The notes under the pieces were generated by a model, which had not been told where the DNA came from, did no database searches, and worked only from the letters and a program-made list of their open reading frames with translations. 64,000 nucleotides of DNA from Buxus sempervirens (taxonomy: Eukaryota > Streptophyta > Magnoliopsida > Buxales > Buxaceae), in NCBI GenBank assembly GCA_947561395.2, contig OX387192.1, positions 8,158,221 through 8,222,220 of the forward strand. Reading direction: 5' to 3'. A program made the translations under genes and the position numbers. Positions within the stretch are counted from its first letter, which is position 1; the number at the start of each line of letters is the position of its first letter. Positions 2,899 through 56,000 of this stretch are shown piece after piece.

Positions 2899-4475
2899 TG
2901 TAGACACCCCAAAATTGCACGATTTTCGATAAATCTTGAAGAAGAAAAATATTTTATTATAATTTTCAATTCTTAGCATTGGATTTGAGATCCTCAACCC
3001 ATTTGAATCTAAAACCGCAAAGGAAAAGGCCCAGATTCAATCTTTTGTGCAAAGTCAAACTTTTCCGATTGAATTTTGTTGACTTTTGACCCCAAAAAAT
3101 GAAATATTTTTTAAGGCAAGATTTCAAGATAATTTTTTCCGATAATCAAGTTTTTGGCAATGTTACTATGTTACTGCATAAATGAATTTTTTGAGCCTTT
3201 AAATCTTGACAGATACCTTAGTATTAACATGTTGAATCTTTTTACCGGACCTGAAAAATCGGAATTTAGCCTTGAACTGGAAAGTTGACTTTTTATTCAC
3301 TTGGAATTTGGTTCTGGAACTATTTTTAATGGATTCAAATTGGGGGGGATGTTTGCTTATTTACATGTCATATCTTAAGTAAATGAAGATTAAAAAATAC
3401 GAGGACATTTACTTAAATGATATTACATGTAAATAAGTATTGCCTGAGTCAAAAACCCAAAATAAATCAAGAAAAAGTGATGTCCGCATATATACTGCGG
3501 TTTTGGCTAATTTTGTCCTGACCGCATACAAGGTGCGGTTGAGACCGCACATATAGTGCAGTTGTGTAAGACCCTTATTTTTTTGGTAAGTTTTATTGTT
3601 TGTTTATTTATTTATTCTTATATATATAACTGTGTTTATCAGGTGATTTTGTGGTTCGAGGGCTTAGCCCATACTCGTATGTACAGGAGTTATATAGCCA
3701 TTTTTCTGAAAAATCGTATTATTATCATTATTATTATTAAAGTATAGTTGTGTGCTTATTAACGTAAATGGATGCGGAACATGTAGTGTTTCCGGTGGGC
3801 AAGCATGCATAGGATCAAGGGGTTAAAAGGGTTGATCGAGCGGCGTATGCATCTCGCAAGGTAAATGTACAAATAGGGAAAGTAGGGTTTTGGGTTTAAA
3901 CGAAATACGGGTATTACTTACGGAAACATTTTTTCGCTAGTCTGAGTATCCGGAGAATTGAGCGATTTCGGCTGGAGTGGCGATTAGGGCTCTGCTCGTG
4001 AAGAACAAGCATCGCAAGGGCTAAGGGAAGGATTTTGGAGTTTAACTTCAGTGGGTTATCTCTCTCTGCTCGAGAAGTTTTGTTTGGAGAGATTTTTCAT
4101 TCGCGTGCGTGGCCGGAGTGGTGATCGGCCGAGGTTTTGATATAGTCGGGAATAAGCGCATTCAGCATTCAGGTGAGTAGCACTGATTTACAACTGGGTT
4201 TTGTGTTTGAGGTTTTCGTGAGCTTATTCTGATGCATGTTTTGTATCTTAAATGATGTATGAGTTTTCTGGTTTTCTGGTTTTCTGGAAATGACATGAAC
4301 AGAGTTCGGAGATTGAATTTTATCATTTATTTAAAAGTGTTTAGATTAAATCCAAATATGGTTGGGAAGTCTTCTGGGAGTATTAGGAGTGTAGTGGAAC
4401 AATTACAGAGATAAACAAACCGGCCAGTCATGTAGATCTTGGAATAACAGAGAAATGAAAATCACAGGGGGTATC

Positions 4476-4740
4476 CGCTCACCTCGCGCTCACCGGCGCT
4501 CACCTAAGAGGTAGGCGCCCCGTTAAATACTACCCACCGCCGAGCTCACACCCGTCTGGCGCTCAGCTCGCGCTCAGTAGAAAACCCGGCGCTCATCTCG
4601 CGTGAATCTCGCGCCCACCTCACGCCCGTCTCGCGCTCAGCTCGTGCTCACCTAGCGTCGAGTGAGCGCTAGGTCTATTTTTACCTGTTTCCTTACCGCC
4701 GACCGGCACTCACCTCGCGTCCACTTCAGGAAGTGAGCGC
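4476..4740. repeat. CpG-rich GCGCTCACC array in Tekay-like LTR copy A
   Basis: About 265 bp of degenerate repeats of CGCGCTCACCT and its complement, strikingly CpG-rich within AT-rich surroundings. Paired segments include 4495-4519 (GGCGCTCACCT facing AGGTAGGCGCC) and 4651-4673 (CCTAGCG facing CGCTAGG, 7-bp perfect stem). The same array occurs at the matching place in the copy at 55473-57877. Confidence 0.8.
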
Positions 4741-5344
4741 AGACCCTATTTTGCTTACTGAATTGGAGATTTGATTTAACTAAGAGTATTTGGGTTACTT
4801 GAGGGTTAAACCACTTCACTATTCACTTGTTTGGGAACCCTGGGAATCTATTTTGCCTAGGAAATTATTAGAGGAAAATTTGGTGAACTTCTTAAAAGCT
4901 TTCAAGTTGAGTTTAGGTTATTTATGAGTGTTGTGCCGGATATCAAACCACTAAGAGTTACTAGTTACATTTCCTCTGTTTTATACACTGTTTTGATTGA
5001 GGAGTTATTCTATTCTGGTTTCACTTGTTTGGAAACTTTAAATGTATTGTAAAGATTTCCTTGGTATGAATGAATTGAGTTTTACTTCCAAATGACATGT
5101 GTTACGGAAATGAGAAAATACTGAAAGTACTTGAGGTACTGCTTGGTCCAGAGGGACAGGTGATGAATTGTGATGAGTTTTACATGATGTGGAATGAATG
5201 GTTTTATTTTGATATTGGAATTGAGATTATACGATGTTTTACTGTTTTGGTCTAGCTTGTCCTGGATCCAGATGTTTAAGCTTAGTAATGTGATGTTATT
5301 GTTGGTTGTTGGAATTGCATGGCCTTGTGTGTTGCCACGACCGG

Positions 5345-5475
5345 TGTAGAGCAGCCAGAAACCCTGAGTAGGCCTGACATGCAGAAACCCGGGGAGTAGG
5401 CCTGCATTGGATGACGAAACCCTGAGTAGGCCGTCATTTCAGAGTATCCGAAACCCTGAGTAGGCCGGAACTGTG
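5345..5475. repeat. CCCTGAGTAGGCC minisatellite (about four units)
   Basis: Units of roughly 35 bp centred on GAAACCCTGAGTAGGCCG. Copy number differs between LTRs: about four here, two at 57232-57292, about four in inverted form at 11540-11662, and two diverged ones at 61048-61112. This is a variable-number repeat confined to this LTR family. Confidence 0.8.
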
Positions 5476-5752
5476 TACATGGAGGTGTTGAGTGTCTACT
5501 TGGCATGCTTAATTTATCAACTAAACGATAGTCATGACATTGACCAATCGATGTGTTGCCGTACTTAACTGAGATGTGATTTGTTTGATTAGAACAAGTC
5601 TTGATTTTGATTTGAGAATTTATGTTGGTTGTTTAACCGTATTCGGTGTTTGTCGATGCATAGTTTAAATTGTGATCAACTATTTCTGCATGCATGTGCT
5701 ACTCGCTGAGATATTCGTATCTCACTCCGTTGTTTGTCTTGTTTGTTTTTCA

Positions 5753-5830
5753 GATACTCGTGGTGAGGCGATTACTGAGGTAGATTCTGCTGAGGCTTAT
5801 AGGGAGGAGGATTACTATTACCTTCCTTAG
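5753..5830 (+). CDS. Conserved 26-codon frame in the LTR (possible 3' exon of a spliced LTR transcript)
   Basis: The frame follows a polypyrimidine tract and CAG (5751-5753). It reads DTRGEAITEVD through REEDYYYLP and stops at 5828-5830. The same frame without indels is found at 57555-57632 and, on the minus strand, at 11181-11258. Between this copy and 57555-57632 I count three synonymous and two amino-acid-changing differences. There is no internal ATG, so translation would need an upstream exon; a donor-like AG-GTGAGT lies at 4173. Function is unknown. It could be a chance frame in a structurally constrained part of the LTR. Confidence 0.35.
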   Translation, partial: DTRGEAITEVDSAEAYREEDYYYLP

Positions 5831-8324
5831 ACTAGTAGGTTATCTGTTCTGAATTTGAGAACTTTGAATTAATTGAGATGTATTAAAGTTTAATTGGGGT
5901 TGAACCATACGATTCTAGTTCAGTTTAAATGTTACAATTTTGCATAAATGGAAATGTGCACTCTGTCAGGTTATAGCTATATGATTATCCAGCGATCATA
6001 AATTGATTAACGATCCTTGCCTAACCTCCGTGAGACGTGTTATATCTTTATTGAACAACACAGATCCGGGGCGTTACAGGTTGAGTTCACGCTTTGTGCA
6101 TGCGCACAAGTGGGCTGCCAGGTGGCCCTGGCCGTTAAGCCGCGCCAGCAGCAATCATGAGGTGTAACTGAATTTCGACCGCAGTAAGTGTGCAGTTTTC
6201 AAGGGGTTTTGCCATGACCGCATTCAGAGTGCGGTTTTGTCTAAACCGCACTATGTATGCAGTTGCGGTCATTTTGCACATTTGCGGAAAGGCTCGAGAT
6301 CTGAGCCTTAGTTACGCATCTTACCTCTTTCTGGGAGACATGATCTCCCTGTTTTGCCCTCCGAAACTTGTAGAATTACATCAATTCATGCCTTTAATTT
6401 GAATTAAAGTAATCTAGAAGCATTTATTGGCCTACCCTTGGGTCTTTTATACCCTTGGCTATGCCTATAAATAGAGAGGTCCTCCTCTTGCAAATGGCTG
6501 CTCATCTAAAGTTAGAAGAGCTCTTGAAGAAGAAGGGAAACTCTGCCCAATTCTCCACTCAAGTGTCCAAGCTACCAAGGTAAGGCTATTCACTTGTTTC
6601 TTCTTCTTTCTAATTACATTCCAGCACTCTCTCTTTCTACCTTTCTGTAGTATAAGGTCATTGCTTGTGCTTGCAACCCCAAACCACTTCTAAAGTACCT
6701 AAGAATCCTCTCTAACCGTAAAACGTGAAGAGAGAGCTTGGGGAAACAGATGATGGCATGGACCTTCTAGGCTTAGAACCATCCTGTGATGAAGAGCTTG
6801 CATATTCATTGTTTTGTATATGTGGTTGTTGTCCTGGAGTGATGTTATTTTAAACCTAGAGAGAACAATGTGATCTATGCTCTCTATAGCATTTGATCCC
6901 CGTTTGCTCCTAGAAATCTGGCTTCCTACACAATCACACACGTTTCACTTCTTTTTGTCAAGAATAGGCTTAGATCTTGATTCACCATGCTCAATATGGT
7001 AAATCTAAGATCCATTGACCTTAGAGTAAATTCTTAAGACTTCATGAGAGTATTCTAGTGATTTCAAGCCAATTTAGTTGAATCCATTGCACACATGCAC
7101 TGGTTTTGCTTTTTTTTACTCAAGGTTTTCAAATCTGGACAGCACCTGTACCCTGTCTTAGAACACTCATAACTTCATCATCCGGATGAATTTTTGAGTG
7201 ATTCCAAAAACATGTGATAGGTGGATATGTCTAATATGTGTATGAAAAATTCGGCAATTTATATGGAATGGATTTTTGACACCATCTGATCAAATTTGGC
7301 AGGCCAGTTCAGATCAGATTACTGAACTTGTCACTTTGATCGAGCACCATTAGCTCATTTTAACTCCGATTTAAGTGATTTTAATCTCTGTGTTTTCCTT
7401 GTTGAGTCTATTTTCAAATCAAACTAGTTTCAAGAGTTTTTACTTTGATTTGTGTCTTGTGTATTTGATTGACTCAGAGCTGCTCAGTAGTAGATTTCAG
7501 AGTCAATCTGTGATCCTCTAGGAATGTTTGAGAGGTCACACAAGTCACAAATGGATGGAGTTTTGTATGAGGCTATTTCATTTGAAATATGGCACCTCAT
7601 ACTTCATTCATGCAAGTTTTTAAGGATTTATATGAAGCCAATCTCCACAAATAGAATTTCAAAATTGGTTACTCGCCGCTTTTCCAGATTTACAGCAGTA
7701 GATTTGATGGAGTATTTCTCTCTCGTTTTAAATCGAATTGAGCTGATTTTTTTATTGAGTCTTCTACTTCATATTAGCTCTCTATTGGCTTTATTTTCAT
7801 TTGATTTGAGTTTAAATCAAAGGATTTATGATTGATCAAAGTTTTCAAGCTAATGTAGCTTCACCTCTTATTGATTTTTCCAGATTTATTTTGGTTTGAT
7901 TTTCTTCAATCTTTACTTTGATTTTTTACCTGATCATGATGTCCTAGAGGTGATGCACTCATGGAGAGAGTCCAGGATCAATGGGACTACTCTTATGAGA
8001 AAATCACACAAGTGTTCGTTCCTTTTTAAGCCTTTTTTTTTAGTGATGTTAATTAGCAAGCAATTATTTGAGCATGAGCAGCATATGGCAACCAACTTGT
8101 GTGGATGAGTGGGGGTGCCTAACACCTTCCCCTACTCTTAACCCAACCCCCTTACCTGATCTCTGGATATAACCATGAATTAGAGCCACTTAGGCTCTAT
8201 TCTTACATTTTTATGATCCCTTTGGTGCCCATTCACACCTTAACTTGAATGGTGGTGACTCCAAACTTTTTTAAACCCCGCGTGATGATGAGGAAGTCAT
8301 CTAGGTGATTTTACATGTCTCACA

Positions 8325-10930
8325 ACTGGCGACTCCGCTGGGGACTAGTGGAATTGAGCCATGACTTGATTGCTTGTTCATGTTTTGTTGATTTTATTGA
8401 TTGCTTGCTATTTTGTTTGCTTCTAATAAGTATGATTGATCTGTTTGCATCTATTTTTAGAGGATATGTGATCTATGAGAATAGGGCATGTGGGTTGTAT
8501 AGGTTTGGTTGGACTTAGAACCATGTTTATTAGATTTATCATGTCAAATCAATTTTTTTTGTCTTGTTACCATGATATCATGCCTTGGTTCAGATTTTAA
8601 TGACATGTGTTGATCATAAGCATAATGAGCATGAAATCTGAATTTTGGTGGTTGTTTTGAATGTTTAAGCATGATTACCATGATTGGTTCTCTCTTTGTA
8701 TAATAACATGCTTACATGCTTGAATGATGTTGGGGAATACATGATTATTATGAGCATGCTTAGGTATTAACTACCTTGTTTATTTGTGTATATGCTTCAA
8801 TTATGATCTCTTTATCATGCCTTGGTGAATGTGGTTGTGTATGGATGGCTACGAAAAAGGGTGGCAAGGGTGGGACGTTGTAATGAATGTTTCCCAATCT
8901 TTTCAAATGCACTTGTGCACCTTTTTCTATTTTTTACATAGCCTACGTATCACCTATAGGAAGTTGAACCCGAATGTGTGTAGTTTGGCGCATCGAGGTC
9001 GTTACTTTGGAAAGCGAAATTGAAAACTTTCACCTTAAAGCTTTGAGCCAATGATGTGATGACATTTGTGGATCTTGAATTCTGGTCATAGACTACACTT
9101 GAGATCTAAGTTGCCATTTAAGCCAAAACCCAAAACCCCTACGCTTGAAGGTGGAGAAACATGTTTTCAGCCAAAGTAAACAATTACGATGGGGAAATAG
9201 GTTTGTAATTGAGGTAAGGCCATTTTGCATGGTTCACATGGCCTGAGGTATGATATGGATACTATTTTTGAAGGTAAACACAAGGAAACAAGGTAATTTC
9301 AGTTTTATTTTTAAACACATGCTTTCATACTTTGTAAAATCATGTTCATGGTGTCCATATGTTGGGGTATCATTTTTCCCAAGGGATTGCTATATCCTAG
9401 GATAGGTGTAGCCCATAGGAAGAGTTTTAACTCTTCTTAGATGTCATTCTACCCAAATGTCCATAGGAGGCAACCTAAGGTTCAAAATACATGCATTTGG
9501 TGTCTATTGTTGGAGGGAGCATATGCCTTCCTTTGTGTGAATGCTACTAATCCTCTTTTTGTAGGAAAATTGAATGGGAATTACATCCAAGAGGTGCTAG
9601 TACAGAAGGCAATTTTTGTAAATAGGATAGGAATTTTATTTTCTTTTGAAAGCCCAAGAAGGCGAAGTTGTAATCTTATTTCATGCCCTTGAAGGCAAAT
9701 TTGTATTTTTCCTCTTTTCTATAATAGGCTTACATTTCTGTGGAAGGCATGAGAAGTCTTTTGTATATGTGTATGATGTATTTGTTATCAATTACCTATG
9801 GTTCATTACTACACATGCATTGTTGCAACACTTGAAGTGTCAAAAGTCCAATTTGGGACAGTTCAGAAGCCACCCAATGGTGAACAAGGAGTTTGTACAA
9901 GTAACCAAACTGATAAAATCAATTGGGAAAAGAAAAAAAAATTTGAAAATCTGTTTCTGGTTTAAAACCGCTCTGATTCTGCAGTTTCAAGCACTTTTAA
10001 CTCTGTTCGCAGAGCATGTGCGGTTGAAGCCAAACCGCTCTGAGTATGCGGTTTTAGACTTTAAATAAGCTCCAGCCATCTTTAACAAGCAAATCTGGTT
10101 TCTATTAATCTATGAATGATATGAACAGATAACCAGGAATTCTAGAAGGATAAATGGCATTTAAATCTTTCCAAACTCATCCAAATCAAAGAGTTAAGAT
10201 CATTTTAGGCAATTTTCACCTAAATTGAACAATTGGCTTAACTAAAGGGTGCAAATGACAAAGTAAAAGCCTGTTTAAATCAGAAACCAAGTCAAGCACC
10301 TCAATTTTAGGGTTAAGCCCGTATTAGGCAATTTTCACCTAATTCGAGCATCTAACCCATCTTAATGGGAGCAAAGGGTTAAAGGAAAATTGGTTTAAAC
10401 TAATAAACCTAATCACACTTCAACTTTAAGAATTGAACATGGAAATAACACTAGGCTTTCAAGACATGTTTTAAGCTTAAGCTTTGAAGTGTAATTCAAT
10501 TTAAAGAAAGGAAGCTCAACCCATGTCTTCTCCAAAAGAGCAAATCCCAATCGAAAATCTATCTTTAATAAGAAGTCTTTAATCATAAAGTGTTCAAACT
10601 TTTAAGATTTCTCCCAAAGAGCAATTTGATTTGCAAATCGTGGGTCACTTGGAAACCATTGAATTCCAAGCAATTAATCATTCAAAAATCAAATAAATCA
10701 TCTCTTTAAAGCAACTTGAGTTTCTTTTTAACTCAAACACTTAATAGAAGGTTCAAAATTATTTTAGGCATCTTAAAACCCTGGAATTTCAGAAAATCAA
10801 TTCATAGGACCTCTGAAAGCCTGAAATTTCAGAATATATCTCTTGGGCCATCTATAAGCCTTTAAATTATAGACATATATATTGGGCTGTAAAAGCCTCT
10901 GAATTTTAAACACAACCTTTTTGGGCCGTC
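8325..10930 (+). mobile_element. Untranslated 5' internal region of the Ogre/Tat-like element, starting with its primer-binding site
   Basis: TGGCGACTCCGCTGGGGAC at 8327-8345 lies 2 bp after the LTR end. From memory it resembles the tRNA-Arg-type primer-binding site of Ogre/Tat elements. The following 2.6 kb has no long frame, as expected of the long 5' leader of such elements. It contains the phrase CCTACGTATCACC (8943-8955), a ~119-bp imperfect repeat around TTAGGCAATTTTCACCT (10205 and 10324), and three ACCGC/GCGGT palindromes at 9967-9985, 10006-10024 and 10034-10052 that repeat the stem word of its own LTR. It is cut at 10930/10931 by the inverted chromovirus. Confidence 0.65.
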
Positions 10931-12173: not shown

Positions 12174-15144
12174 TGTGAGACATGGAAAAATCACCGGGAT
12201 GATTCCCCTCCGTCAACACACGGGCTCAACGTAAAATGTGGGAGTCGCCACCATTCAGATTTTCGGGTGTGAATGGACACCAAAAGATTCAAAATAAGCA
12301 AAAAGAGCTAAAAGGCAAATACTAGAGTAAAAATAACTCTACTTGAAAATCAGATCCAGAGATGGGTAAGGGGATTAGATTATGAACGGGGAAGGTGTTA
12401 GGCACCCCCATTCACCCACACAAGGTGGTTGCCAAGTGTTGTTCATGCAAAAAAATGAAAAAGCTTGCTAAAATCATCAAAAACCTTGGAAAAGGGTTAA
12501 ACAAATATGTGATATGTCCACATGAGAAATCCAAATGAATTCCAGATCCTCTTTTATATCAATATCACTTCTAGAATATTACTAATAGATGGCAATCAAA
12601 GCAAAAATTGCACAAAACCAAGTTGAGTCAAATCCGGAAGATTCGGTAAAAGATAGTGCCATTTGTCTTGAAATCATTTAAATCCAATTTAAATGGAGCC
12701 AAACCAAATCCATTTAAAAAATTATGGTAAATAAGAGACTCATGCAAAATTCCAATTAAATCCGGTTGAAATCCTAGGAGCTATGCTTCTTTTAAAAGTG
12801 CTGTTGAAGGTAGTAAAAAGTGGCAAGTGTGCAAGTTTGGAGAATTATCTAGAAAAATCGGCTCCATATAAATTCATGAAATTTGGTGTGAATGAAGTCT
12901 GTATGGCCATCTTTCAAATGAAACTAGCCTCATACAAAAATTCATTCGGATGTGCCTTGGGAGGTCTCCCGAACAGGCCCCGAAGATCACAGATTTACCC
13001 AGAAAAGTGCTGTTGAGCAGTTCTGAGTAAATCTGCTACCAACGACACAAATGGAGTCAAAAAATTATGAAACCAACTGGTTTTGAAACTATACTTCCAA
13101 AGGAAAACACAGAAACAAGAATCATTCGAATCAGACTTAAAACGAACACATGGCGCTCAGTCGAAGTGACAGGTTCCGTATTCAGACCTGAACTGACCTA
13201 TCAATTTCGACAGAGAGGTGTCAAAAATCCGCTTGATAGAAATTCATGAACTTTTACAGACATAAACTAAACAGCCCCACCTTTCCCATGGCTCTGAAAT
13301 CACTCCAAAATTCATCCAGACGATGAAGTTATGAGTATCCGAAGTTGAGGTACAGTTGCTGTCAAGTTAAGCCTTTTTTGAAGAAAATCAACTCAAACAG
13401 TAACAAAGTGTGTGGCATCTGTGCAAGATAAATCAAAACCATTTTGAAAAGATATTGAAGAACCTTTAGGAAGAAATAAGGCACAAGTTCGGCTCACCAT
13501 CCTCTCCGATTGGAAAGGATATGCCAAAAACCCCAAAATTGAACAAAAGTGCCCAAAACCGAGAGGTTAGACCTAGAGGCCTTCAAGATTTGAAATAAAC
13601 TTGATTGAAATCGATAACAAACATTCCAGAATTGCTTGGGGCTATTTATTTTAGATCTACCACAATGACGGCAATAGATCCAAAATACAAGCCAAATCCG
13701 ACAAAACAAGTGCTATGTGTGTAAGTGTAAAAATCCATTATTTAACAATATAATAATATATAGCATGCATTTAAATCAATCAAATGGGGTTCTAAAATAA
13801 CCTAGGGTTCCATTCTATTATCGTTTCCCTTAGTTCTCTCTCCCCGTTAAACACGGTTCTTCAAGATAATCTTGGGGTACTTTGAATATGAAACGGTTTT
13901 CATAGAATCAAAAGGCTTATTCCAATCAAGGTTCTAGCACTAGGATCAATCCTCAGTCTCGTTTCCCCTAGATCCTGCCTTCACGTTTTACGGCTGGGGG
14001 GAGTCTCGATGTACTTTGAGTAGGGGAAGGGTTTTCATACACATAGAAGAGACCTTATTCTACAGAAAGGTAGAAGAAGAGATCTAGATCTAGAATGTAA
14101 AAACAGAAAATAAAGAGAGGTTTGAGGCTTACCTGGGCTTCTGGAAGAAAAATTGCAGCGGTTCCCCTCTTTACTCAGATCTCTTTGATCTCCAACTTCT
14201 TGGCAAAAGTTCTTGGCAAGAGTTAATGGCCATTTGCTTAAGGAGGAGCCTCCTATTTATAGGCCAAGGCTAGGGTTAGGGTTTGCATGATGCTAAACAC
14301 AAAATGATGTCTAGAGTCCACCAACCTAAACCCTAAGGCTATTTCAGAGATTTCCACTCCTTTAATGAAGGATATGAGGGTAAAACGCGAAAACTCTCGG
14401 AAAACCCTAATTTTGAGCAAAAACCTTGTATCCGACAACTAAGGTCGGATATAAGCAATTCTCTTTGTATCCGACATTATCTGTCGGATACAATAAAGAT
14501 CCTTTGTATCCAACATTATCTGTCGGATACAATAAAGATGTTTTGTATCCAACATTATTTGTCGGATACAAAAAAAAGAAACTTTTATCCGAATTTTAAC
14601 ACAGGCAATACTTATTTACATGTAATATCGTTTAAGTAAATGTTCTCGTATTTTTTAATCTTCATTTATTAAGATATTACATGTAAATAAGCAAACACCC
14701 CCCCCCCCCCATTTGAATCCATTAAAAATAGTTCCAAACCCAAATTCCAAGTGAATAAAAAGTCAACTTTCCAGTTCCAGGCTAAATTCCGGTTTTTCAG
14801 GTCTGGTAAAAAGATTCAACATGTTAAAACCAAGGTATTCGTCAAGATTTAAAATCTCAAAAAATTCTTTTATGCAATAACATGGCTAAAAACCTGATTA
14901 CCAAGAAAAATTATCTTGAAATCTTGCTTTAAAAAATATTTCATTTTCTAGGGTCAAAAGTTAACAAAATTCAACCGGAAAAAGTTTGACTTTGCACAAA
15001 AGATTGAATTCGGGCCTTTTCCTTTACAATTTTGGATTCAAATGGGTTAAGGATCTCAAACCCAATGCAAAGAATTGAAAATTCCAATAAAATATTTCTC
15101 TCCTTCAAGATTTATCAAAATCGTGCAATTTTGGGGTGTCTACA
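12174..15144 (-). mobile_element. Solo LTR of the Ogre/Tat-like 'family 2' (copy B)
   Basis: The 2971-bp LTR reads on the minus strand from TGTAGACACCCC at 15144 to TGTCTCACA at 12174. It is flanked by perfect 5-bp duplications GGTAG (12169-12173 and 15145-15149). No primer-binding site follows, so it is a solo LTR. It matches copy A (2899-8324) at both ends. A minus-strand TATAAATAG box is at 14253-14261. Upstream of it lies a 39-bp-period palindrome cluster (14428-14569). A C13 run lies at 14698-14710. Confidence 0.92.
14428..14569. repeat. Four-unit palindrome array CCGACA/TGTCGG, 39-bp period
   Basis: Four 25-bp inverted repeats at 14428-14452, 14467-14491, 14506-14530 and 14545-14569, spaced exactly 39 bp. 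Each has GTATCC(G/A)ACA, a 5-bp centre and TGTCGGATAC; the first is the most diverged. The array lies 575 bp from the LTR start and ~170 bp upstream of the TATA box. TGTCGG is also the known high-affinity core for plant ARF transcription factors; whether that matters here is unknown. Confidence 0.9.
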
Positions 15145-16514
15145 GGTAGCGTAGGACTTTATCTCTCACTAACTGTAAATAAGGAATGTATCTATTTCAG
15201 AGGAATAAGAATAATTGTCTAAGCATCAAAAATAAAATCAACATCTCGAAGTATTAGCTAACCAATTAGGAAGTTTCTGTTTCCACATAAGACTTCAGAT
15301 TCTCCATTTATATTTTCATATATATACAGGGGTAGTAACCCCCAAATTCCATCACAACTACTCAGTAACTGCTTACTTAAGTTTCTGGGGTTTGAACCCA
15401 ACCAGTTTAATCAACCATTTAATCCTAATGAGTCAGCTGCATAGAATTGGAAATTAGAAGGGTTGGCGCTGACCTCCAATTTTGGTGTTAAATTCCTCTT
15501 TAATTTTTGGTGTTAGAATTTCTGAGTTTCCAACCCCTTACACATCATTTCCAAGTCTTAATTAATCTAATGGAACAATTTAAATGGGCTTTGAACCAGA
15601 TTTCTCAAGTTGGCAAGTTTGCCGAAGTTTTCTGGAAATAATACACCTGGCGCTCACCTCCAGAGGTTGGCACCAGGTCTATCAGGTTAGCCCCAGACTA
15701 AATTTGAACTGGTGCTAACCTCATATAGGTTAGCGCCAGGTCCACCGCGCTTAGCGCCAACCCAACTTCTGACTCAGTAAATTTTCCACACTCTGTTAGG
15801 TGAATTCTGACATGTCTAAACCCAAATCCCTTGCCAAACTCGACCACAATCCCTTCCTACATCTCCTAACATACCGATTAACCCTAATTGAAATTAATCC
15901 AAACAGAAATCACAGATAAATCACTCGATCTTCACTAACAGGTCTGTTAGCACCTGATTTTTGCACTCCCAAAAATGCAGAAAATAAAAATTTTAATTAA
16001 AAAGTCAAACCTTGAGGGGTCAAATTTTGACTTTTTGATCCAAAGAGAATTGGCCATCAAACTTTCTCTTATTAAAAAGAGCATTTCGACACGGTTCCAA
16101 CGCAATTGAGTTTGTTGGAATCGGAGTCCAGATGAGGAAGTTATGAGTCGGTCAAACTTTTGGGGAGCGAAAAGTTGACTTTTTGCTTGACCCCAATTCA
16201 TCTGCCCAAATTGATTCCAATGGATAGGTGGTTCGGAGCTGATTCCAACGACACCAAATTTGCTGGAATCGGACATCGGACGAAAAAGTTATGGGCAATT
16301 GAAGTTTCCAGAAAGCTGCCCATGTGGCAAAAAGGCAGCAGAAAGCAGTATAAATCAATAAAATAAATAAAATAAAATGTGTTTTTTAATATATTAAATA
16401 TTTGAATTAAAGAATCTCATTTTATAATAAAATAATCAAAGAAATTGGATGAAAATCTTGCAAAAAATCAAATTTAATAAAAGGTTTGAAATCCAGTATT
16501 TAAAAAACGTGCTC

Positions 16515-16563
16515 GCCTGTATTTGAAGTACAGGCAAGGCATGCCCGCACTTCAAATACGGGC
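16515..16563. repeat. First palindrome cluster of family-3 LTR (plus copy)
   Basis: Two 21-bp units with 7-bp arms and 7-bp spacers: 16515-16535 (GCCTGTA facing TACAGGC) and 16543-16563 (GCCCGCA facing TACGGGC, one C-A mismatch), 28 bp apart. They lie ~105 bp upstream of the TATA box. Confidence 0.8.
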
Positions 16564-17624
16564 AAGGCTTCTAGAAGCGTGACACGCGTCCCGTACGGCG
16601 ACAGCTGGTCGATTCGGAGAGATTTGAAAATGTGAATAATTTGTCCGTATTTGAACAAAATTTTGCCTATAAATCGGGGGCCAGCGCCCCCCACCCCCCC
16701 CCCCCCCCCCCCCATTTCAACAAGCTGGCCCCCCAAGCCTTCCCCCCTCTCCTTCTCTGCTCCCTGCTCGTCCAACCCCTGTCTAAGCTCTGCCAAAATC
16801 CCATTAGCCCAGAAAAATCCCCATTTTGCCCTTAACCCTTGCCAAATCCCATCCTTTTCATCTCTTTCAGCATAAGAAGCTAGTGGGCCCCTTTTCAAAC
16901 CCATTTCGGGAAATCAACAGGAGCACGGAAGCGCTGCCAAAATCCACCCACTGTCCCCACCTTTTATCTCTCTCAAGCCAAAGCAAGGGAACTCCTTTTC
17001 AAACCCATTTCGGAGAATCAAAGGGAGTGCGGAAGCGCTACCAAAATCATTCGGAGAACCTCCACTCCTCAGAACAAGGTAATAATAGCACGGTAAGCTT
17101 TTAATTAGCTTTGTATTTAACATATATTGTTATTAGATTCCCTGAATAAATTATCTTCTGATTATTTTAAGGCTATTCTTTATTTTCTTTTCTAACTAAT
17201 CTGTTACTTGGTGTATATAAGCGGGGCTCCCCAGGAGGGGGAGTTCGCCCATGCGAAATAACAGAAAGAGAGAGAATCCTTGTTAAGAAAAGGGTTTTCT
17301 GAGCTAATCCCTTTTATGTTCATTTATTCTATTTTAAAAGAGGGGTTTTGTCCTCTTCAAAGTCTAATGTACCCCATAATCCTTCCCTCTTTCCTTTCTC
17401 GGTAAAATCTCCACGCATGCACGGCTTAAACAGGCAAGAAGAAGAGTTAAAATCTCTCTTTCTATGGAACATCAAAAGAAAAAGAGAAGACATTTGAACC
17501 AAAAGTAAGAGGTTGGAACCATTTGATAGGCTGGAAATCGCCAGCCGAAATCGGTAGAAGGCGAAAAGGAACCGATAAACCAAATTTGTCTAAAATCGCG
17601 GCGTTTTTTGGAAATTCAGGCGAA

Positions 17625-17701
17625 AACCGTATTTCAAGTACGGTTCAGGCTCGCCCGTATTCAATATGCGGGCAAGCCTGAACCGCATTACATTTACGGT
17701 T
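17625..17701. repeat. Second palindrome cluster of family-3 LTR (plus copy)
   Basis: Three 21-bp units, again 28 bp apart: 17625-17645 (AACCGTA facing TACGGTT), 17653-17673 (GCCCGTA facing TGCGGGC) and 17681-17701 (AACCGCA facing TACGGTT). The first and third also pair with each other as a larger stem (CGGTTCAGGCT at 17641-17651 with its complement at 17675-17685), so a nested cruciform is possible. The unit design is the same as in the first cluster of this LTR. Confidence 0.85.
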
Positions 17702-19316
17702 CAGCCCAGCCTATATAATAAATACGGGCAAGTTAAAGAAAAGCTTAAAAATCATATTTTTTTGACCCGGTCGGATCCAATCCGACCCAAATAGGCTTAA
17801 CCCGATCCACTGGGCTTCTTGGACCTTTCCAAGCCCATTTTGTGACTGTGAGCCCAATGGACCCATCAAGGCTTCGTGGGCCCTCCAACGGGGCCCACAT
17901 CCAACCCGGCCCAACCAAGGCCCGTTTTCAATAAATGGGCCCAAGGCCATTTATTAACTGCCCATGGGCCAAAACCTAGCCCATTGGGCCCCTAAAAGCC
18001 TAAACCAACTTAATTTGCATGTTTTAGTAAATCTTTGAACCAAATAACCAAAATCCAATAAGGGTTACCCAATAACCCAAATTGGGCCTTGGGCTTGACT
18101 TAAGCCCAACATGGACTCCACTGAGCCTTCCAACAGGGCCCACATCAAACCCACTTCATTAAATGGTAAGAAGATAAAATCAAATAAAAAGGGGACCCAC
18201 ACCATCAGTGGTCCCCACCAGACCAAATAAGTGTGCATGCTGGCCTAGGAATTGGGTAAGAATTAAGTTGACTCAGAACCAGGGAGACCCATGGGACCCG
18301 TCAACCAATGGGGCAGGCTAGGGTGTCTTCGGACTTCCCTAGACGTAACCAAGAACTTGCTCAGATCTCTAATAAGCCGCAGACCAGAATAATTAGGCCT
18401 GAATAGGTGCCCCTTTTGTGTCTGCCTGCACCTCTCAAGCAGTGGCGACTCCAAAATAGTCCTGAGGCACGCATCATTTCGCATGCGCCTCGTTGTGCGA
18501 CCGAAATCGGGTGCGCACAAGGTCAAAAACAGGTAACTCAACACACTCGACTGTAATTCGATTCTTAAATCACATCCATATGCTAAAATCGACTAAACAG
18601 AGTACTACTCACATGATACAAATTATCCTCACGATCGATCACTCCCAAACCCTTCCAGATCTCGCATGGCAGCAGCTCCAAAACACTCTTCGACCAACGA
18701 TCGGCTCCCAATCTTGACTCCTAATCCAACCTTGATCGCACAGCCAAAATGGGCAGATATTAGTAATTGTTGGTCGCTACAGAAATTGGACAGAAGAATT
18801 CCTCCTTCCAAATTAACCTTCTGTCAACTCCAAATGATCAATCTCTCCTTACTTCTCTTCTTCCCCAATTCGTTTGGAACCAGCAGCAACTTCTTCTCCA
18901 ATCAAATGAGCAAAACCCAAACTCCACAATATTTCGGCTATTTATAAGGTAGTTGGCGCCAATTCCTTCTCGCGATATGCTGTGTGCTCGCCCACAGCTC
19001 TTCCTATGCAACCAGCTCATTAACCTTGATCCCATATTTCATTTTTCGCCAAAATTACCTTAAATTAGCCCAACACTTAATATCCATTAAATCACCACCC
19101 TGAATTTATTAAACAGAACCATGTCTGCTCACCTTAGCTTACCCTACGAAATTCAGATTTGCGAAGTTCCAAGTTACCCTTGACCTTGATTGCCTGAATT
19201 TCCACCAATTTAAAACATAATAAAATTATTAGATAATTCTTACAATATCATTTATTAAAACCCGGGGTTTTACATTCCCCCCCCGCTACAAATAAATTTC
19301 GTCCTCGAAATTTACC

Positions 19317-19727: not shown

Positions 19728-19729
19728 AG

Positions 19730-49292: not shown

Positions 49293-50396
49293 TGTGCGCG
49301 CGTGGGAAACGCGGCACGGGGTGATTCGGAGTCGCCACCGCCTGATGGGGTGCAGGCGGACACCTGGGTGCCTAATTTTGCCTATTAGGGCTTTTTGGTC
49401 TGCGGCTTGAGATTCTAAGTCTGTTCTCGGTTGTGGTCCGGGGAAGTCCGTAGACACCCCGGTCCACCCCGTCGGATGACGGGTCCCGTGGGTTCCCTGG
49501 TTTGAGTCAGCTTACATTGGTCTCACCTGTTTCCTAATCCGATATGCAATTTGGTTAAGTCTGGCGGGACCACCTGAGTGGTGTGGGTCCCTTTAGTTGC
49601 TTTTATCTTGATTACTTAGGTGATCTGAGTCTGGTTGGGTGGGCCCCGTTGGAAGGCCCACGGTATCCTTGGTGGGCTTAGTCAAGCCCGTGTGCCCTTG
49701 TGGGCCTTGGCCTATCCTAGGAGGCCCTTTGGGCTTTGGTTGGTGCATTGATTTTACTTTAGATTCAGATTTGAAGGCTAAGTGTTTTTCATGCATAAGT
49801 GGGCTGGATTGGTTTGTGGGCCCCTAAGGTGGGCCCACATGGTGGCCAAGTATTTTTATTAGATTTATCTTTTTAATCTGTCAAAGTGATCTGGACACTG
49901 GGCTTGGGGCCCGTAGTCCAAATCTGGGCTTGTAAGCCCAAGTTACCGGAAGTTAGGGTTTGCACCCTTCCTTGGTTCGGTTGGTGGGCTTTGTCGGGCC
50001 CGGTAGGCCCTTGCCCTTAGTCTCGGCCAAACCACGCAATTCATGCATCAATTTCACATAACAAGGCTCGGGTGGGCCGCATTGGGTTTGGCCCGCCCGG
50101 TTCAAATTGTTCATTTTACTTAAGTTATTCTAATGGCATGCTTTTGGTGTTTTATTGGGCTTGGTGGGCCCCGTTGGAAGGCCCACTGGAAGTCAAGTTG
50201 GACCGGGGGTCCAAGTCCCACATTGGGTTTCCGGGTGACCCGGAAACCCTACTGGTTTATTCGGTTCGGTTCGGAAATAGCATTCACATCTAGCAATAAT
50301 CACAAAAAAACACAAGATGGACACTCTGTCAGAAAAAAAACCGGTAAGGGGTATTTTTGGAATTTTCAAAAAAAATGACAATTCGGCCTGTTTTGG

Positions 50397-50672
50397 ACCT
50401 GGCGCTCACCTCCTGAGGTGAGCGCCAGGTGGGCGCCAGAATCCGGGCGAAAATTTGACCTAGCGCTCACCCGATACCAGGTGAGCGCGAGCTGGGCGGG
50501 AGGTGAGCGCGAGATGGGCGCGAGAAGAGCGCCAGAATTTCGCTTGGTTCTAGGTAGGCGCGAGCTGAGCGCCAGGTGGGCGCCAGGTGGGCGCCAGCTC
50601 GGCGGGAAGTGGGCTGAAAGGGGCGCCCACCTCCTAGGTGAGCGCCAGGTGGGCGCCAGGTGGGCGGCAGGT
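50397..50672. repeat. Second hairpin cluster of family-3 minus copy (GGCGCTCACC word)
   Basis: Begins with a 34-bp near-perfect palindrome (50397-50430): 16-bp arms containing GGCGCTCACCTC with a 2-bp centre. It continues with GCGCTCACC/GGTGAGCGC units, including one at 50622-50646. The same word characterises the Tekay-like LTRs of family 1. CpG density is far above the surroundings. Confidence 0.9.
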
Positions 50673-51591
50673 CACTGCTCTCTGTTTTTTTGAGATCTCC
50701 AACTCTGGCCGATTTTTTTCGGTCTGTAACTGTTCCACTAGCCTCCTAACATGCTTAGAACACCTCCCAACCAATCTTGGATTTAATCTAAACACATTTT
50801 TATTTCAAGTTTTGAAAACCCAGAAATCTCACAGTACAAACATGCATTCAAATAATATGCCTAGGACACTCCCCCGGGCTTCGACCACTCCCCAGAATGC
50901 ACTCACACTTGTATTCAAATTAACTAAAATACTTCAACCCACAACTCCCAATCTCTTTAAAGGGAAAAGAAACCAAACCCGATAAAAAAACAAACACCTA
51001 CAGATGCATTAACAGCTTATAAAAAAAAAGGGGGGTGATGGGAGCATGCTCAAGGGTACACAAACAGCAAATGGCATGTTAGCGAGTCCAGCACAACAAA
51101 AAACAAAGAAAACAACATGCAGACATTACATGCACTTTCATCCACAGACTGGTCCTTCAAGCATGCATACTAACATCCGAAGAAGGGAGAGAGGAGGGGG
51201 GTTTACAGGGATACATCAGATGAAGGGAACTTGGGAACATGCTCCCTTTTCGGCGCGAGCAACACATGCCTCTTCCTCTTCCTTACTTGGTGGTCTTCAT
51301 CAGATGGAAGTGAACAAAAAGAAACATGGTTTCATGGCTGTGGCCTCATACCACCGAATAAGACCGGCTTACGAAAAAAAACATCACATACTCATATAAC
51401 AGGGATGTTTACCTGGTGGTTCTTGAGTTCTGGAGCTGAGTGGGGGAGCCTCCTCGAAGTCGGACAGCGGCGGGATCCTCCACTTCACCGCACCAGCAGT
51501 AGCAAGCTCCCACTTGCTTGGGTGGAAATGGAGAAGAACCAAAGGACGGTGATGAGCTTGGGGTTTTCTGGGAGGCAAGCCGGAGTGAAGA

Positions 51592-51614
51592 GGGGGGGGG
51601 GGGGGGGGGGGGGG
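51592..51614. repeat. G23 homopolymer run
   Basis: Twenty-three G within the minus-strand LTR (C-run in LTR sense). The plus-strand family copy has a C20 run at the matching place (16694-16713). Confidence 0.9.
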
Positions 51615-51752
51615 CTTCGGGTGAAGGAAGAAGGAAGCAAACCAAAACCCTTCGAACTCTCAAAAACTCCGAACACTTAGTTTCTTTTTCCGAATTTTTC
51701 CAACCCCCTGCGCGAGAAGTCGCGCGGGTTATATAGACAACAAAAAAGGGTA

Positions 51753-51788
51753 TGCGCCCACCTTGGCGCCCAGCTCAAGGTGGGCGCA
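51753..51788. repeat. First hairpin of family-3 minus copy
   Basis: Perfect 12-bp arms TGCGCCCACCTT (51753-51764) and its complement (51777-51788) around a 12-bp centre. It lies just upstream (LTR sense) of the TATA-like box. It uses the same word type (GCGCCCACC) as the second cluster of this LTR. Confidence 0.9.
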
Positions 51789-52111
51789 AGCCCGCTCGCC
51801 ACGTCCGCGCGAGCGGCAAAATGATGAAAATCATTTAATGCCGCCGCTCGCCGGACGTAAAAATCTTTAAAATTAAGATTTAGTCCCTGACAATTTTTGG
51901 TAAAATCCGATATTCTTGGATTTTTACAGATTTAGTCCCTGGGATATTTCGAATGTTCGGATATTTACGGATTTGATCCCCGAGATATTTTCCTGCGCCA
52001 CTCGCCACGTGTGCAGCTTTTTGCCACGTGCGCAGATTGCCGGTTTTGCTGCCCGGGAATTTCGTCAGCTCATATTTCCTCCATCCGGACTCCGATCTGG
52101 GCAAACTTAGT

Positions 52112-52735
52112 TTCATTAGAATCGTATCGGAGCCCTCCATCCCATGACCTAGGGGTAGGCCTCTGGATCGGATTTTAGCAGAAAGTCAACTTTTGGCTCT
52201 GCTCAAGTTTGACCGCCCGCAGAACCTTCATCCAGACCCCGATTCCTGCAAACTCGGTTGCGTTGGAACCGTGTCGAGACTCTCTATCCAATGACCTAGG
52301 GGTAGGTCTCTGGATCGGATTTTAGCAGAAAGTCAACTTTTGGCTCTGCTCAAGTTTGACCGCCCGCAGAACCTTCATCCGGACCCCGATTCCTGCAAAC
52401 TCGGTTGCGTTGGAACCGTGTCGAGACTCTCTATCCAATGACCTAGGGGTAGGTCTCTGGATCGGATTTTAGCAGAAAGTCAACTTTTGGCTCTGCTCAA
52501 GTTTGACCGCCCGCAGAACCTTCATCCGGACCCCGATTCCTGCAACCTCAGTTGCGTTGGAACCGTGTCGAGATTCTCTATCCAATGACATCAAGCAAGG
52601 TACTTGGCACGGAATTCGAGGAAAAGTCAACTCTCAGCTTTTCCTTAAGTTTGACCGCCCGCAGAACCTTCATCCGGACCCCGATTCCTGCAAACTCAGT
52701 TGCGTTGGAACCGTGTCGAGATTCTCTATCCAATG
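52112..52735. repeat. 147-bp tandem repeat, about five units
   Basis: The phrase GTTGCGTTGGAACCGTGTCG recurs at 52261, 52408, 52555 and 52703 (position of CGTTGG), with a diverged version near 52114. Spacing is 147-148 bp. The units from 52144 to 52437 are nearly identical, so the expansion is recent. The other family member has only two units (16095, 16243) with 148-bp spacing. Confidence 0.92.
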
Positions 52736-52865
52736 GCATAAAGCGAGGTGGCCAAATTTCACTTGATCAAAAAGTCAACTTTTCACCCCTTAGGGTTTGA
52801 CTTTTTGTCCAGGGTTTGCATTTTTGGTTTTTCTGGGAGCGCAAAAATGAGGTGCTTACACCTCT

Positions 52866-53079: not shown

Positions 53080-56000
53080 TAGGGTTGCTAATCAAGCCAG
53101 ACCGACATGGCACAGACACGTTTCGCCCGTGCCTTGCGGGCTGTGGATTGGGTACGACACAGCTAAGGCTGTGTCTGCGGTGGCACATGGGCTAGCGCGT
53201 GGAGGGTATTTTTTCGAATTTGTTGCAAAAAATTAGGAAAAATAGAAAAAAAAAAGAAAAAAATTAATAAACAAACACAAAAAATTCTGAAAAATATATT
53301 TATTATTCACACAAATTTCTTACACATATTAGGATACAATTTTCTCAAAAAAAAAATTAAATAAAGTATTTCTATTACAAAAAATTGTAATTTTGCATTT
53401 CCACAAGTACAACTTTGCAATGCAATAATACTTATGCAGTTACACAAATAATACTGCATCACTATAATATGAGCATATCCCAACTAAGTTGGCACCCACT
53501 CATCTATCTTTCATTTGCAGTTTTAGAAGAAAAAAAGAGAGAAGGAAATTTTTTAAACTAAAACTTTTACATTAATTATAAAAAATATAATAAAACTTTG
53601 ACTAATCTGGAAGATTCAATTCTTCAATATTCTAATCATTGAAGTCTCCAACAAATTAATCATCAGTAACTCTTGATCTCTCAGTTCTGCCCTTAGCCAA
53701 TTCGTCAAATATACACATACTTGCACCATCTCTAACGTTAATATGCTCCTATATATAGTCGTCCACCATCCATCCACCTTCACTAAAAACTGATTCCGAT
53801 GTAACTGTGGATACCGAACCGTTAGTAAATCACGTGCCATGGAGGAGAGCACAGGATAAGTAGCTGATTTTGCTTCCACCATGCCAAAATATTAAAAGAA
53901 TTACACTCCTCTGAACTATAACACCCTAGTGGGGGGCATTCTAAATATATCCTTAACTCAGACGATGCACCACTACCAGATGCTGGTTGTTTCCCCCTTC
54001 TTCTACCACTTAAAAAATTCCAGGAGGAACTATCTGGTAGTGTTGGTTGGGTTTGAGTTAGAGCCTGTCAGGTAGTATCATATTCTAAGAAAAGGTTTTT
54101 CTTAAAGGTTTTTTTATTTTATTTGTATCTTATTGAAAAGAGGATTTCATTTTTTTTTCATTAATTACGTCTATTAAATCTTCTACTATTGCAATAGCTA
54201 AACAATATAAAGTGGGCATTTCTTGCCAATATTTTAAAATTTTATATTCTATTGCTAGGCAAATAGCCCTAGCAACATGCATCTCTCTATATTTTTCAAA
54301 GCAACAACTTATTTGAAATAATATATTTAAAATATTTGGGGATGTTGGGTAAACCACCGATAAGAATGTTATTGTATCAAAAAAACTTTTAAGAAATCTC
54401 TTAAAAGTTCTACTATTTGCCAGTCAAGTTCTTCTAGTTAGCTTTCAAGTACTTCTGTTTTATAAAATAGTGTAAGTTCCTTTTTAAATTCTAGTGCAAC
54501 ATCTAATATTAAATATGTTGAATTCCATCTATAGTCGACATCTGGGGTAATTTTTTTATGTTGTTTTCCAAAACATGCACAATAATTTTTAAATTTTCTA
54601 AAAGTTGTGCTAGATTGTTTTAAAAATCTTACTATGTTTCTAATATTCATTAAATTATGTGATAATCCATCCTGTGCAACTAAATTTAGGATATGATGAG
54701 CACATCAAAATGAAATAAACATCCGTCTAAATTTAAGTTTAAGTGTTCTCTAGTATGTCATTGCAACATTATTAGCACTTGAATTATCAAGTGCTACAGC
54801 CATTATTTTATTTTGTAATTTATACTCTCTTATATTCTGTGCTATAGAAGTTGCTATAGCTATTCTAGAATGTCTAGACTCTAGTGATGCAAAACTTATT
54901 ATTCTTTTTTCCAGGCTCCAATTCTCATCTATATAATGTGCAGATATAGCTAAATAACTTATGTTTTGTCTACTTGTCCAAATATCTGATGTTAAAGTTA
55001 CCTTAAAACTACAATTTGAAAAAGTTTCTATTAATCCTTTTTTCTTTTTTCGTATATAATTTATATGCATCATTTCTTTTAATGTGACGTGAGAATAGTT
55101 AAAATTGTGGTGCTAGATATTTGGTTACAAGACGGACAAATCTTTTACTTTCTATTAGTCTAGAGGTAATTCGTATTGTATTACTCACTTGACAATTCCT
55201 TCCTTAGTCTCTTCTTGGTTAAACATAAAGCTGGACAAATTGGAGCTACTGGTGGAGATTTGAGCTTGCCTAGGGTCTACTTGGTCATGTTCTGGAAGGC
55301 ATTTCTGCAAATGCCACTGCAAGAGGCTTGTACCCCCTGTACTTTTGTAGCTAAATTATTTATTTATTTATTTTTTGTAGTGGTTACAAACTGCCCTTTC
55401 TTCCCCTATACAGTTTGAATTGAAAATTTTTGCCAGACACCATAGGTATTAGTCCTCTTGCCGCTCCTAAGTTGTAAGACCCTGAATTTTGTGAGTATTT
55501 ATTTATTTATTTAGTTATTTATTCTGATGTATAAACTGTGTTTATCAGGTTATTTTGTGGTTTGAGGGCTTAGCCCATACTCATATGTACAGGCGTTATA
55601 TAGCCATTTTTCCGAAAAATCGTAGCATTATCATTGGTATTATTAAGGTGTAGTTATGTGATTTTTAACGCGAATAGATGCTGAACATGTAGTGTCTTCC
55701 GTAGGCGAGCATGCATAGGATCAAGGAAATGGGAGAGTATTCGAGCGAGTATGTAACAAGTAAGTGGACTAAAATGGAAAGTAGGGTTCGGGTTTATGAG
55801 AATACGCTTAGCATAATTTCGGCAACATTTTCGTTAACTCTGGACATAAGGAGAATTGGCGATTTCGATTGGAGGGCGACTAGGGCTTTCGTTCGTGAAG
55901 AACCATATATCGCAAGTGCTGGAAGAAGGAGTTCGGAGCTGAAGTTCCTTGGGTTATTTCCCTCTGCTCGAGAAGATTAGTTCGATAGGTTTTTCATTCG

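Follow-up and report, generated by a model that had tools for sequence, protein, structure and literature searches.

Arrangement of LTR elements and hairpin arrays

The window, a 64,000-nucleotide stretch of the Buxus sempervirens contig OX387192.1, contains LTR retrotransposon sequences of families 2 and 3 and of a chromovirus type (Table 1). The solo LTRs F3p, F3m and F2B have TG...CA ends and exact 5-bp target site duplications (TSDs), which are general traits of LTR elements and not specific to the Ty3/gypsy Tat clade, to which families 2 and 3 may belong. T1 is inserted within the hairpin cluster of the F2A LTR, while the internal region of F2A is interrupted by T3 at position 10929. T1, T2 and T3 are putative chromoviruses of the Tekay type. 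An interior piece of T3 (19464-19787) matches SH3_Tf2-1 (Pfam, E 5.7e-22), the sole match among 10 ORF pieces picked from 135 listed. The coding region of families 2 and 3 was not found within the window. The F2A primer site is presumably of the tRNA-Arg type. Non-Met tRNA primers, Arg among them, are used by non-chromoviruses (PMC6317226).

Table 1. Coordinates of LTR elements and hairpin arrays in the window.
Feature	Position	Strand	Description
F2A, family-2 copy A 5' LTR	2899..8324	+	interrupted by T1; primer site TGGCGACTCCGCTGGGGA next
F2A LTR cluster, left half	3482..3563	+	dyads at 3482, 3520, 3543
F2A LTR cluster, right half	6177..6264	+	dyads at 6177, 6216, 6244; TATA-like site 6466
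F2A leader cluster	9966..10053	+	dyads at 9966 and 10033
F2B, family-2 copy B	12174..15144	-	solo LTR, TSD GGTAG
F2B cluster	14429..14592	-	four dyads TATCCRAC-N7-GTYGGATA (14429-14568), 39-bp spacing; decayed half-unit
F3p, family-3 plus copy	15945..18519	+	solo LTR TGTTAGCACC...GTGCGCACA, TSD AGGTC on both flanks
F3p cluster 1	16515..16563	+	two 7-7-7 dyads (16515-16535, 16543-16563), 28 bp apart
F3p cluster 2	17625..17729	+	dyads 17625-17645, 17653-17673, 17681-17701; decayed fourth unit 17709-17729
F3m, family-3 minus copy	49293..52860	-	solo LTR, TSD CCTCT on both flanks
F3m cluster 1	51753..51788	-	one hairpin, 13-bp perfect arms, word GCGCCCACCT
F3m cluster 2	50397..50672	-	direct repeats of 11 bp plus four hairpins with short loops, word GCGCYCACCT
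F3m module	50399..50805	-	cluster 2 with ~130 bp of flank upstream; homology to T1/T2 LTRs
T1, chromovirus-type solo LTR	3565..6078	+	TSD AGTTG/GGTTG, 1 mismatch; own array 4476-4745
T2, chromovirus-type solo LTR	55473..57877	+	TSD TAAGT; own array ~56355-56625
T3 LTR pieces	10930-12173, 15150-15944, 18525-19274
T3 array	15640..15770	-	words GCGCTAACCT, GCGCTCACCT and close variants

Chance hairpins were ruled out by comparing predicted sense-strand folding with dinucleotide shuffles: none of 200 shuffles matched in nine of the 11 cluster pieces, with one and two matching for the left half and the leader cluster of F2A, respectively. A scan of the window for exact inverted 7-mer words returned 14 clusters (mean 1.0, maximum 4 in 30 simulated sequences), and was overly strict, missing the F3p, F2A and T3 clusters and F3m cluster 1.

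The F3p units have the geometry given in the earlier note, with a 7-nt arm, a 7-nt loop, a second 7-nt arm and a 7-nt spacer adding up to 28 bp, at the positions given there; the decayed fourth unit is in register and was identified by eye. The word CCGTA/TACGG forms a perfect dyad in only one of five units; three others carry a single C.A or T.G mismatch and one reads CTGTA/TACAG. Cluster 1 lies upstream of a TATA-like site at 16668, and its two units are imperfect inverted copies of each other (arms 16512-16536 and 16542-16566). Cluster 2 is palindromic around its middle unit (17641-17660 and 17666-17685). A segment of ~50 bp, comprising two units with their loops and spacers, aligns between the two clusters.

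In F3m, cluster 1 ends 18 bp upstream of a TATA-like site at 51735. Cluster 2 does contain the expected word, GCGCYCACCT (10 occurrences, compared with two in cluster 1), but is mostly an 11-bp direct repeat, and the word stands in both arms of three of its four hairpins. F3p and F3m also carry arrays of a third word, GGGCC/GGCCC, with 18 and 19 of the 59 sites that the window contains; in F3p, 14 of these 18 fall within 17878-18137. Thus, no single word is used throughout an element.

The F2B cluster occupies the same position within the LTR as that of F2A and consists of tandem copies of a 39-bp unit that are 91% alike. Its word contains CCGAC, which we take to be the DREB core. The LTR and leader clusters of F2A share a word as proposed, but the arm differs, being AACCGCT in the leader and GACCGCA in the LTR. 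Across the eight F2A units, the two arms are 83% and 92% identical, while loops are 37% and flanks 32-33% identical, as measured on units selected by their arm pattern. Loop identity increases to 53% when pairs are compared in whichever orientation fits best, suggesting some kinship among loops.

Cluster position is set by the family only loosely. The first cluster ends between 18 and ~200 bp upstream of a TATA-like site in F3p, F3m, F2A and F2B, distances that depend on the analyst's choice of box, as F3p has four such sites and F2B three. The second cluster of family 3 was correctly located but, since both copies are solo LTRs, it sits inside the LTR.

Words within and between elements

The central observation of the earlier note, that one word is common to two distant clusters of an element, is borne out in F3p, F3m and F2A, where the similarity exceeds that of nearly all of ~2450 background windows. 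For clusters 1 and 2 of F3p, no window out of 2453 scored higher by either 6-mers or alignment; for F3m, one of 2462 did so by 6-mers and none by alignment. The F2A leader cluster was surpassed in one of 2440 windows (6-mers) and none (alignment) when compared with the right half of the LTR cluster, and in none (6-mers) and 1.6% (alignment) when compared with the left half. A shuffle test of shared 7-mers gave p=0.0033 for both F3p and F2A, and 0.06 for F3m. Sister copies differ in word at the same LTR position (2A from 2B, 3-plus from 3-minus), and comparisons across copies within families 2 and 3 are close to background.

The words nevertheless cross family borders, and the view that each is private to an individual element is rejected for this reason. 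Two classes can be recognized. Class I comprises three words, in F2A, F2B and F3p, which have a 7-nt centre and share a CCG-N11-CGG core in the same register. A single degenerate dyad fits the F3p units and the F2A LTR units, leaving out the two F2A leader units, and F2B joins through the core. The core was selected as a pattern after the words had been seen; it has 12 hits in the window (1.35 expected), 10 of which are within these clusters, and none of the six arrays or half-arrays of class I lacks one. Direct comparison of the F2A and F3p clusters is near background (fractions of background windows 7-67% by 6-mers and 5-59% by alignment), and the case for a common word therefore depends on the degenerate pattern.

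The class II word, GCGCYCACCT, occurs in F3m (12 copies), T1 (two), T2 (five) and T3 (one); the remaining units of T3 differ from it by one letter, as in GCGCTAACCT. In F3m the shared sequence extends beyond the word. Cluster 2 and its flank match the T1 and T2 LTRs by blastn with identities of 71% (E 2e-46) and 70% (E 1e-44), in agreement with alignment. Six loci in viral contigs carry the class II hairpin pattern (L001-L006) and one the primer-site pattern (L007); none has a blastn match to the window at E 1e-3. By eye, all of these loci resemble phage or bacterial DNA. The T3 integrase piece gave four pattern matches in viral contigs and no confirmed relatives, and an Rfam scan at gathering thresholds returned no matches.

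Dyad sites, modules and alternative readings

We consider the clusters to be arrays of dyad sites in LTR regulatory DNA, probably docking a factor, which have spread by module exchange and unit copying; we give this reading a probability of just under one half (roughly 0.48). One array would lie just upstream of the TATA box, in U3, and the other in the transcribed leader. Several copies of a putative factor that recognizes a specific DNA sequence would most likely bind to each array. This factor would probably be a transcription factor of the host and, judging from the symmetry of the dyads and their fixed spacing, may act as a dimer. The arrays may in this way influence transcription. They would travel as modules from one LTR family to another, probably when reverse transcription switches template among RNAs packaged together. 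Units would also be copied from one array to the other, U3 or leader, within an element, and either process would make its two arrays match. In favour of this reading are the F2A arms, which are conserved while the loops drift, the nearness of the first cluster to a TATA-like site in F3p, F3m, F2A and F2B, and the core common to the three class I words. Counted for module exchange are the ~70% identity of F3m cluster 2 and its flank to T1/T2, and the F2A and F2B LTRs, which are 80-95% identical per 75-column stretch over the first ~555 bp and then fall to ~45% from the cluster edge. Unit copying is suggested by the segment shared between the F3p clusters, where similarity beyond the arms is significant (p=0.0005). 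The earlier note had named copying of one segment as a circumstance that would undo its proposal; this describes F3p, applies more weakly to F2A (p=0.0085 for the right half of the LTR cluster against the leader, 0.27 for the left) and is not evident in F3m (p=0.066), where the shared word alone suffices.

Palindromes with variable centres could alternatively originate from hairpin-driven mutation, in which reverse transcriptase switches template or snaps back at palindromes, leaving inverted copies and spreading one word with no function. The inverted duplication that makes up F3p cluster 1, the palindromic cluster 2, the tandem F2B units and the end of F2A/F2B homology at the cluster edge speak for such a process. 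The F2A arms, however, have been kept while the loops drifted, which argues against plain unit duplication, as this would carry the loops along; the centre remains constant at 7 nt, and the CCG-N11-CGG core is common to three words. We regard a purely mutational origin as unlikely. Slightly more doubtful is a role at the RNA level, in which the U3 cluster at one end of the genomic RNA would pair with the leader cluster at the other (cyclization), or the clusters of two RNAs would pair (dimerization, packaging), forcing the words to match. Predicted U3-leader pairing within an element is indeed strong (z of -5.9 for F3p, -6.7 for F3m and -2.4 for F2A; 60 shuffles each), and four of the other 21 U3-leader pairs are below -2. 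Precedents are the short 5' palindrome through which Ty3 dimerizes and the CYC5/CYC3 cyclization sequences of Ty1 (PMC11381356). The predicted pairing is, however, not strictly element-specific: F2A U3 pairs more strongly with the F3p leader (-3.5) than with that of F2A itself, the U3 of F3m pairs with T1/T2 (-3.0, -3.3), and the F3p leader also pairs with the U3 of F2B (-2.1). Four of the eight F2A units have a C.A mismatch in the stem, and the stem mismatches on the sense strand (14 G.T and 18 A.C) reveal no G.U excess of the kind that selection for pairing of the sense RNA would leave.

Two readings give the word itself the role of a code. We find it improbable that the U3 and leader arrays form a two-site recognition code, with one dyad word in fixed geometry (CCG-N11-CGG, 7-7-7), in which the whole code may be switched by a module from an unrelated family (as F3m from T), changing the serving factor, Gag or anti-silencing protein. 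The element-specific tag of the earlier note, in which the word would be read by the element's own co-evolving recogniser, such as an encoded VANC-like protein, and could change only in both clusters, is the least probable. Words do agree within elements and disagree between sister copies, and the VANC proteins of VANDAL transposons are a precedent (PMC5735166). The words are common to several families, however, the window shows no coding region for family 2 or 3, and segment copying explains the agreement in F3p. With three two-cluster elements, all concordant, random re-pairing would give the same outcome with a chance of 1/6 if three words are counted, or 1/3 if two types are, so the tag cannot be established here. 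The matching arrays look like regulatory modules swapped or copied between elements, and not like a private tag of each.

Relation to known systems and significance

Regulatory U3 sites are known from plant LTR retrotransposons, as in the U3 repeats of Tnt1. Although the earlier note knew of no described counterpart, in principle one exists in the VANC targets of Arabidopsis VANDAL elements, where one motif is present in several noncoding regions of an element and repeat units diverge together (PMC5735166). Like the arrays described here, these consist of a dense short motif in several noncoding regions and differ between related families (PMC5735166, PMC10398659). VANDALs are DNA transposons with a known binding protein and same-orientation arrays, whereas the present arrays are dyads of LTR retrotransposons with no known protein. 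The present motifs are likewise dense, their words are common to several families, and both orientations occur within the dyads, with direct repetition only in the 11-bp repeats of class II.

Comparable in placement are the U3 sites of plant LTRs, such as the heat-shock element of ONSEN and DREB/CBF sites, which lie upstream of the TATA box and depend on the family; transcription-factor sites, including those for DREB1, are described as features of plant LTRs (PMC11656987). A matching second array in the leader was not found in the passages on these sites. The Ty1/Ty3 sequences (PMC11381356) also involve 5' leader palindromes and possible 5'-3' pairing; they are single short sites of yeast elements and not arrays, and here pairing specificity fails for F2A. 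Onsen elements acquire hybrid LTRs through recombination, trading modules with one U3 junction among the cases (PMC5668417). That exchange takes place inside one family, whereas the present module is common to two LTR families. Among the literature matches listed, outside supplements and most of the subscription literature, no title or opening of an abstract mentions LTR retrotransposons with two hairpin arrays that share a word.

Should the arms prove to be binding sites, the factor that drives or silences a given retrotransposon family could be read from its matched U3 and leader arrays, which would also reveal families changing masters through swaps of LTR modules. An array exchanged together with its flank between two LTR families would be a concrete case of such a swap. 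If the cause is only hairpin-driven copying, the arrays would still show how repeats of this kind originate in LTRs.

The elements and their hairpin clusters

The window looks like plant DNA that holds nested LTR retrotransposons. It holds plus and minus copies of family 3 (F3p, F3m), two copies of family 2 (F2A, F2B) and three chromovirus-type LTRs (T1–T3). T1 and T2 are 83% identical, while the identity of T3 to T1 (77–79%) is confined to the downstream third. T3 is interrupted by F2B and F3p, and an integrase piece adjoins it. Clade names of Tat type and Tekay type are presumptive, being based on LTR ends and the primer site.

LTR elements and element parts in the window
Element	Coordinates	Strand	Description
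F3p	15945-18519	+	solo LTR; target duplication AGGTC, exact on both sides
F3m	49293-52860	-	solo LTR; target duplication CCTCT, exact on both sides
F2A	2899-8324		5' LTR, followed by primer site and leader to 10929
F2B	12174-15144	-	solo LTR; target duplication GGTAG
T1	3565-6078		chromovirus-type solo LTR within the F2A hairpin cluster
T2	55473-57877		chromovirus-type solo LTR; target duplication TAAGT
T3	10930-12173, 15150-15944, 18525-19274	-	third LTR of the T1/T2 kind, in three pieces

The hairpin clusters are real, with folding beyond nearly all dinucleotide shuffles in 11 cluster pieces; sense-strand folding was matched by 0/200 shuffles in nine of the 11 pieces, and by 1/200 and 2/200 in the remaining two. 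The F3p clusters are built of 28-bp units (arm, loop, arm and spacer, 7 bp each), two in cluster 1, before the TATA box, and three in cluster 2, after it, where a decayed fourth unit in register was read by eye. F2A carries six dyads in its LTR cluster, which T1 splits into left and right halves, and two in its leader; the four dyads of F2B are spaced at 39 bp. The T1 insertion (3564-3565 / 6078-6079) abuts a dyad end, and a weak palindrome preference of LTR elements is described in PMC6911290.

Other repeats occur in the window. GGGCC/GGCCC arrays in F3p (17878-18137) and F3m (49641-50180) hold 14 and 19 of the window's 59 sites, and this word is unchanged between the two copies. The F3m U3 contains a 147-bp tandem repeat (52055-52783; 4.5–5 copies), the homologous stretch of which is present once in F3p. 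A 68-bp segment occurs twice in F3p (16877-17048; 104 bp apart, 82% identical), downstream of a TATA-like site at 16668, and a direct duplication of ~500 bp (1.1 kb apart, 79% identical) lies at 40810-42404. Outside every LTR identified in the window is a GTATCGG/CCGATAC array (32598-32801; ten copies in one orientation, two in the other), the ends of which (AAGGTTTTTAA...TTTTTAAACCTT) resemble, by eye, the inverted repeats that bound a small transposon.

Words shared within and between elements

Cluster-pair similarity was scored by shared 6-mers and by alignment against ~2450 background windows. As the earlier note proposed, clusters of the same element share a word, their similarity exceeding nearly all background windows in F3p (0/2453 by both measures), F3m (1/2462 by 6-mers, 0 by alignment) and F2A (leader versus LTR right half, 1/2440 and 0; versus left half, 0 and 1.6%). 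Tested by shuffling, the shared 7-mers gave p=0.0033 for both F3p and F2A, and a weaker p=0.06 for F3m. Cross comparisons within a family are near background by 6-mers and alignment: 59% and 58% of windows for F3p cluster 1 versus F3m cluster 2, 9% and 20% for F3m cluster 1 versus F3p cluster 2, 78% and 94% for the F2A leader versus F2B, and 77% and 93% for the F2A LTR right half versus F2B. Three two-cluster elements are too few to establish a pairing rule for the words: random re-pairing gives full concordance in 1/6 cases with three words and 2/6 with two word types.

The proposal that the word is private to the individual element is contradicted, as the F3m word is found in T1, T2 and T3, and the F2A LTR and F3p units fit one degenerate dyad. 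GCGCYCACCT has 20 sites in the window (F3m 12, T2 5, T1 2, T3 1), compared with 0.05 expected for a pattern derived from these very sites. The exact ten-letter word is present in F3m, T1 and T2 alike; T3 holds GCGCTAACCT, differing by one letter, ~930 bp into the LTR (T1 counterpart, ~910 bp). F3m cluster 2, together with ~130 bp of upstream flank, is ~70% identical to T1 4333-4716 (E=2e-46) and T2 56208-56622 (E=1e-44), and has 7-mers in common with T1, T2 and T3 (p=0.0033, 0.0033 and 0.0066). Searching the window with a profile of these three flanks recovers the flanks themselves and next only a stretch inside T3, at E 0.68. For F3m cluster 1, the match to T1 and T2 is clear by alignment (0.0004 and 0.0000 of background) and less so by 6-mers (0.032 and 0.117), and the 7-mer shuffle test found no match (p=0.14 and 0.19).

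The degenerate dyad CYGYA-N7-TRCRG has 11 matches in the window, namely the six units of the F2A LTR and five of F3p (0.33 expected), and CCG-N11-CGG, common to F2A, F2B and F3p, has 12 (1.35 expected), ten in the clusters of these elements and two elsewhere in F3m; these chance levels are a guide rather than a test, since the patterns were picked after the words were known. The two F2A leader units, with T as inner letter, do not match the former. Compared directly, F2A and F3p clusters are near background (6-mers 7–67%, alignment 5–59%), with one of four 7-mer tests, F3p cluster 2 versus F2A leader, giving p=0.017.

Shared segments and homology breaks

The F3p clusters align across ~50 bp, comprising two units with their loops and spacers. 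When the arms were kept and the remainder of cluster 2 was shuffled, the observed score was never reached in 2000 trials (p=0.0005); thus, the F3p clusters share a segment, beyond the word alone. In the same test, p was 0.0085 for the right half of F2A, 0.27 for its left half and 0.066 for F3m.

Across the first ~555 bp, each 75-column stretch of the F2A/F2B alignment shows 80–95% identity; this drops to ~45% at a point no more than ~27 bp from the first dyad, and varies between 43 and 86% beyond. Homology of F3m with T1 and T2 stops at the cluster's last hairpin. A break is present in four LTR comparisons, and in these two it lies at a cluster edge; between F3p and F3m the blocks stop ~220–710 bp away, and the T1/T3 break is not at the edge either. 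Recombination between LTR RNAs in Onsen yields hybrid LTRs, with one junction within U3 (PMC5668417).

Interpretation of the arrays

The earlier note's statement that the system has no described counterpart fails because VANC/VANDAL motif arrays have been described: PMC5735166 reports a short motif densely arrayed in several noncoding regions of a single element, the repeat units diverging together. VANC/VANDAL is the nearest described system in principle, but differs from the LTR arrays in element class, motif orientation and having a known protein. Matched dyad arrays in the U3 and leader of LTR retrotransposons are not described among the literature matches listed.

Identity over the eight F2A units is 83% for the 5' arm, 92% for the 3' arm, 37% for the 7-nt centre (53% taking each pair's better orientation) and 32–33% for the flanks; selection of the units by an arm pattern favours such a contrast. 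An origin of the arrays by mutation only is not favoured, since copying of whole units would bring the loops too, yet the F2A loops diverge. It is possible that the leader and U3 clusters pair as RNA; the predicted pairing is strong inside F3p (z -5.9) and F3m (z -6.7) and modest inside F2A (z -2.4). However, the F2A U3 is predicted to pair more strongly with the F3p leader (z -3.5) than with its own, and the F3m U3 with T1/T2 too (z -3.0 and -3.3). Stem mismatches on the sense strand (14 G.T versus 18 A.C) give no support for selection on the sense RNA.

The arms at fixed spacing, with freer centres, look like half-sites, and a TATA-like site follows the upstream arrays at a distance of 18 to ~200 bp. 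The F2B word includes CCGAC, the DREB core. DREB1 sites are among the LTR features in a machine-learning study of plant LTRs (PMC11656987); a DREB site in F2B is thus a lead rather than a test. Arm conservation, TATA proximity and the lack of a sense-RNA signal therefore lead us to favour, at slightly under even odds, the reading of the arrays as DNA dyads for a putative binding factor.
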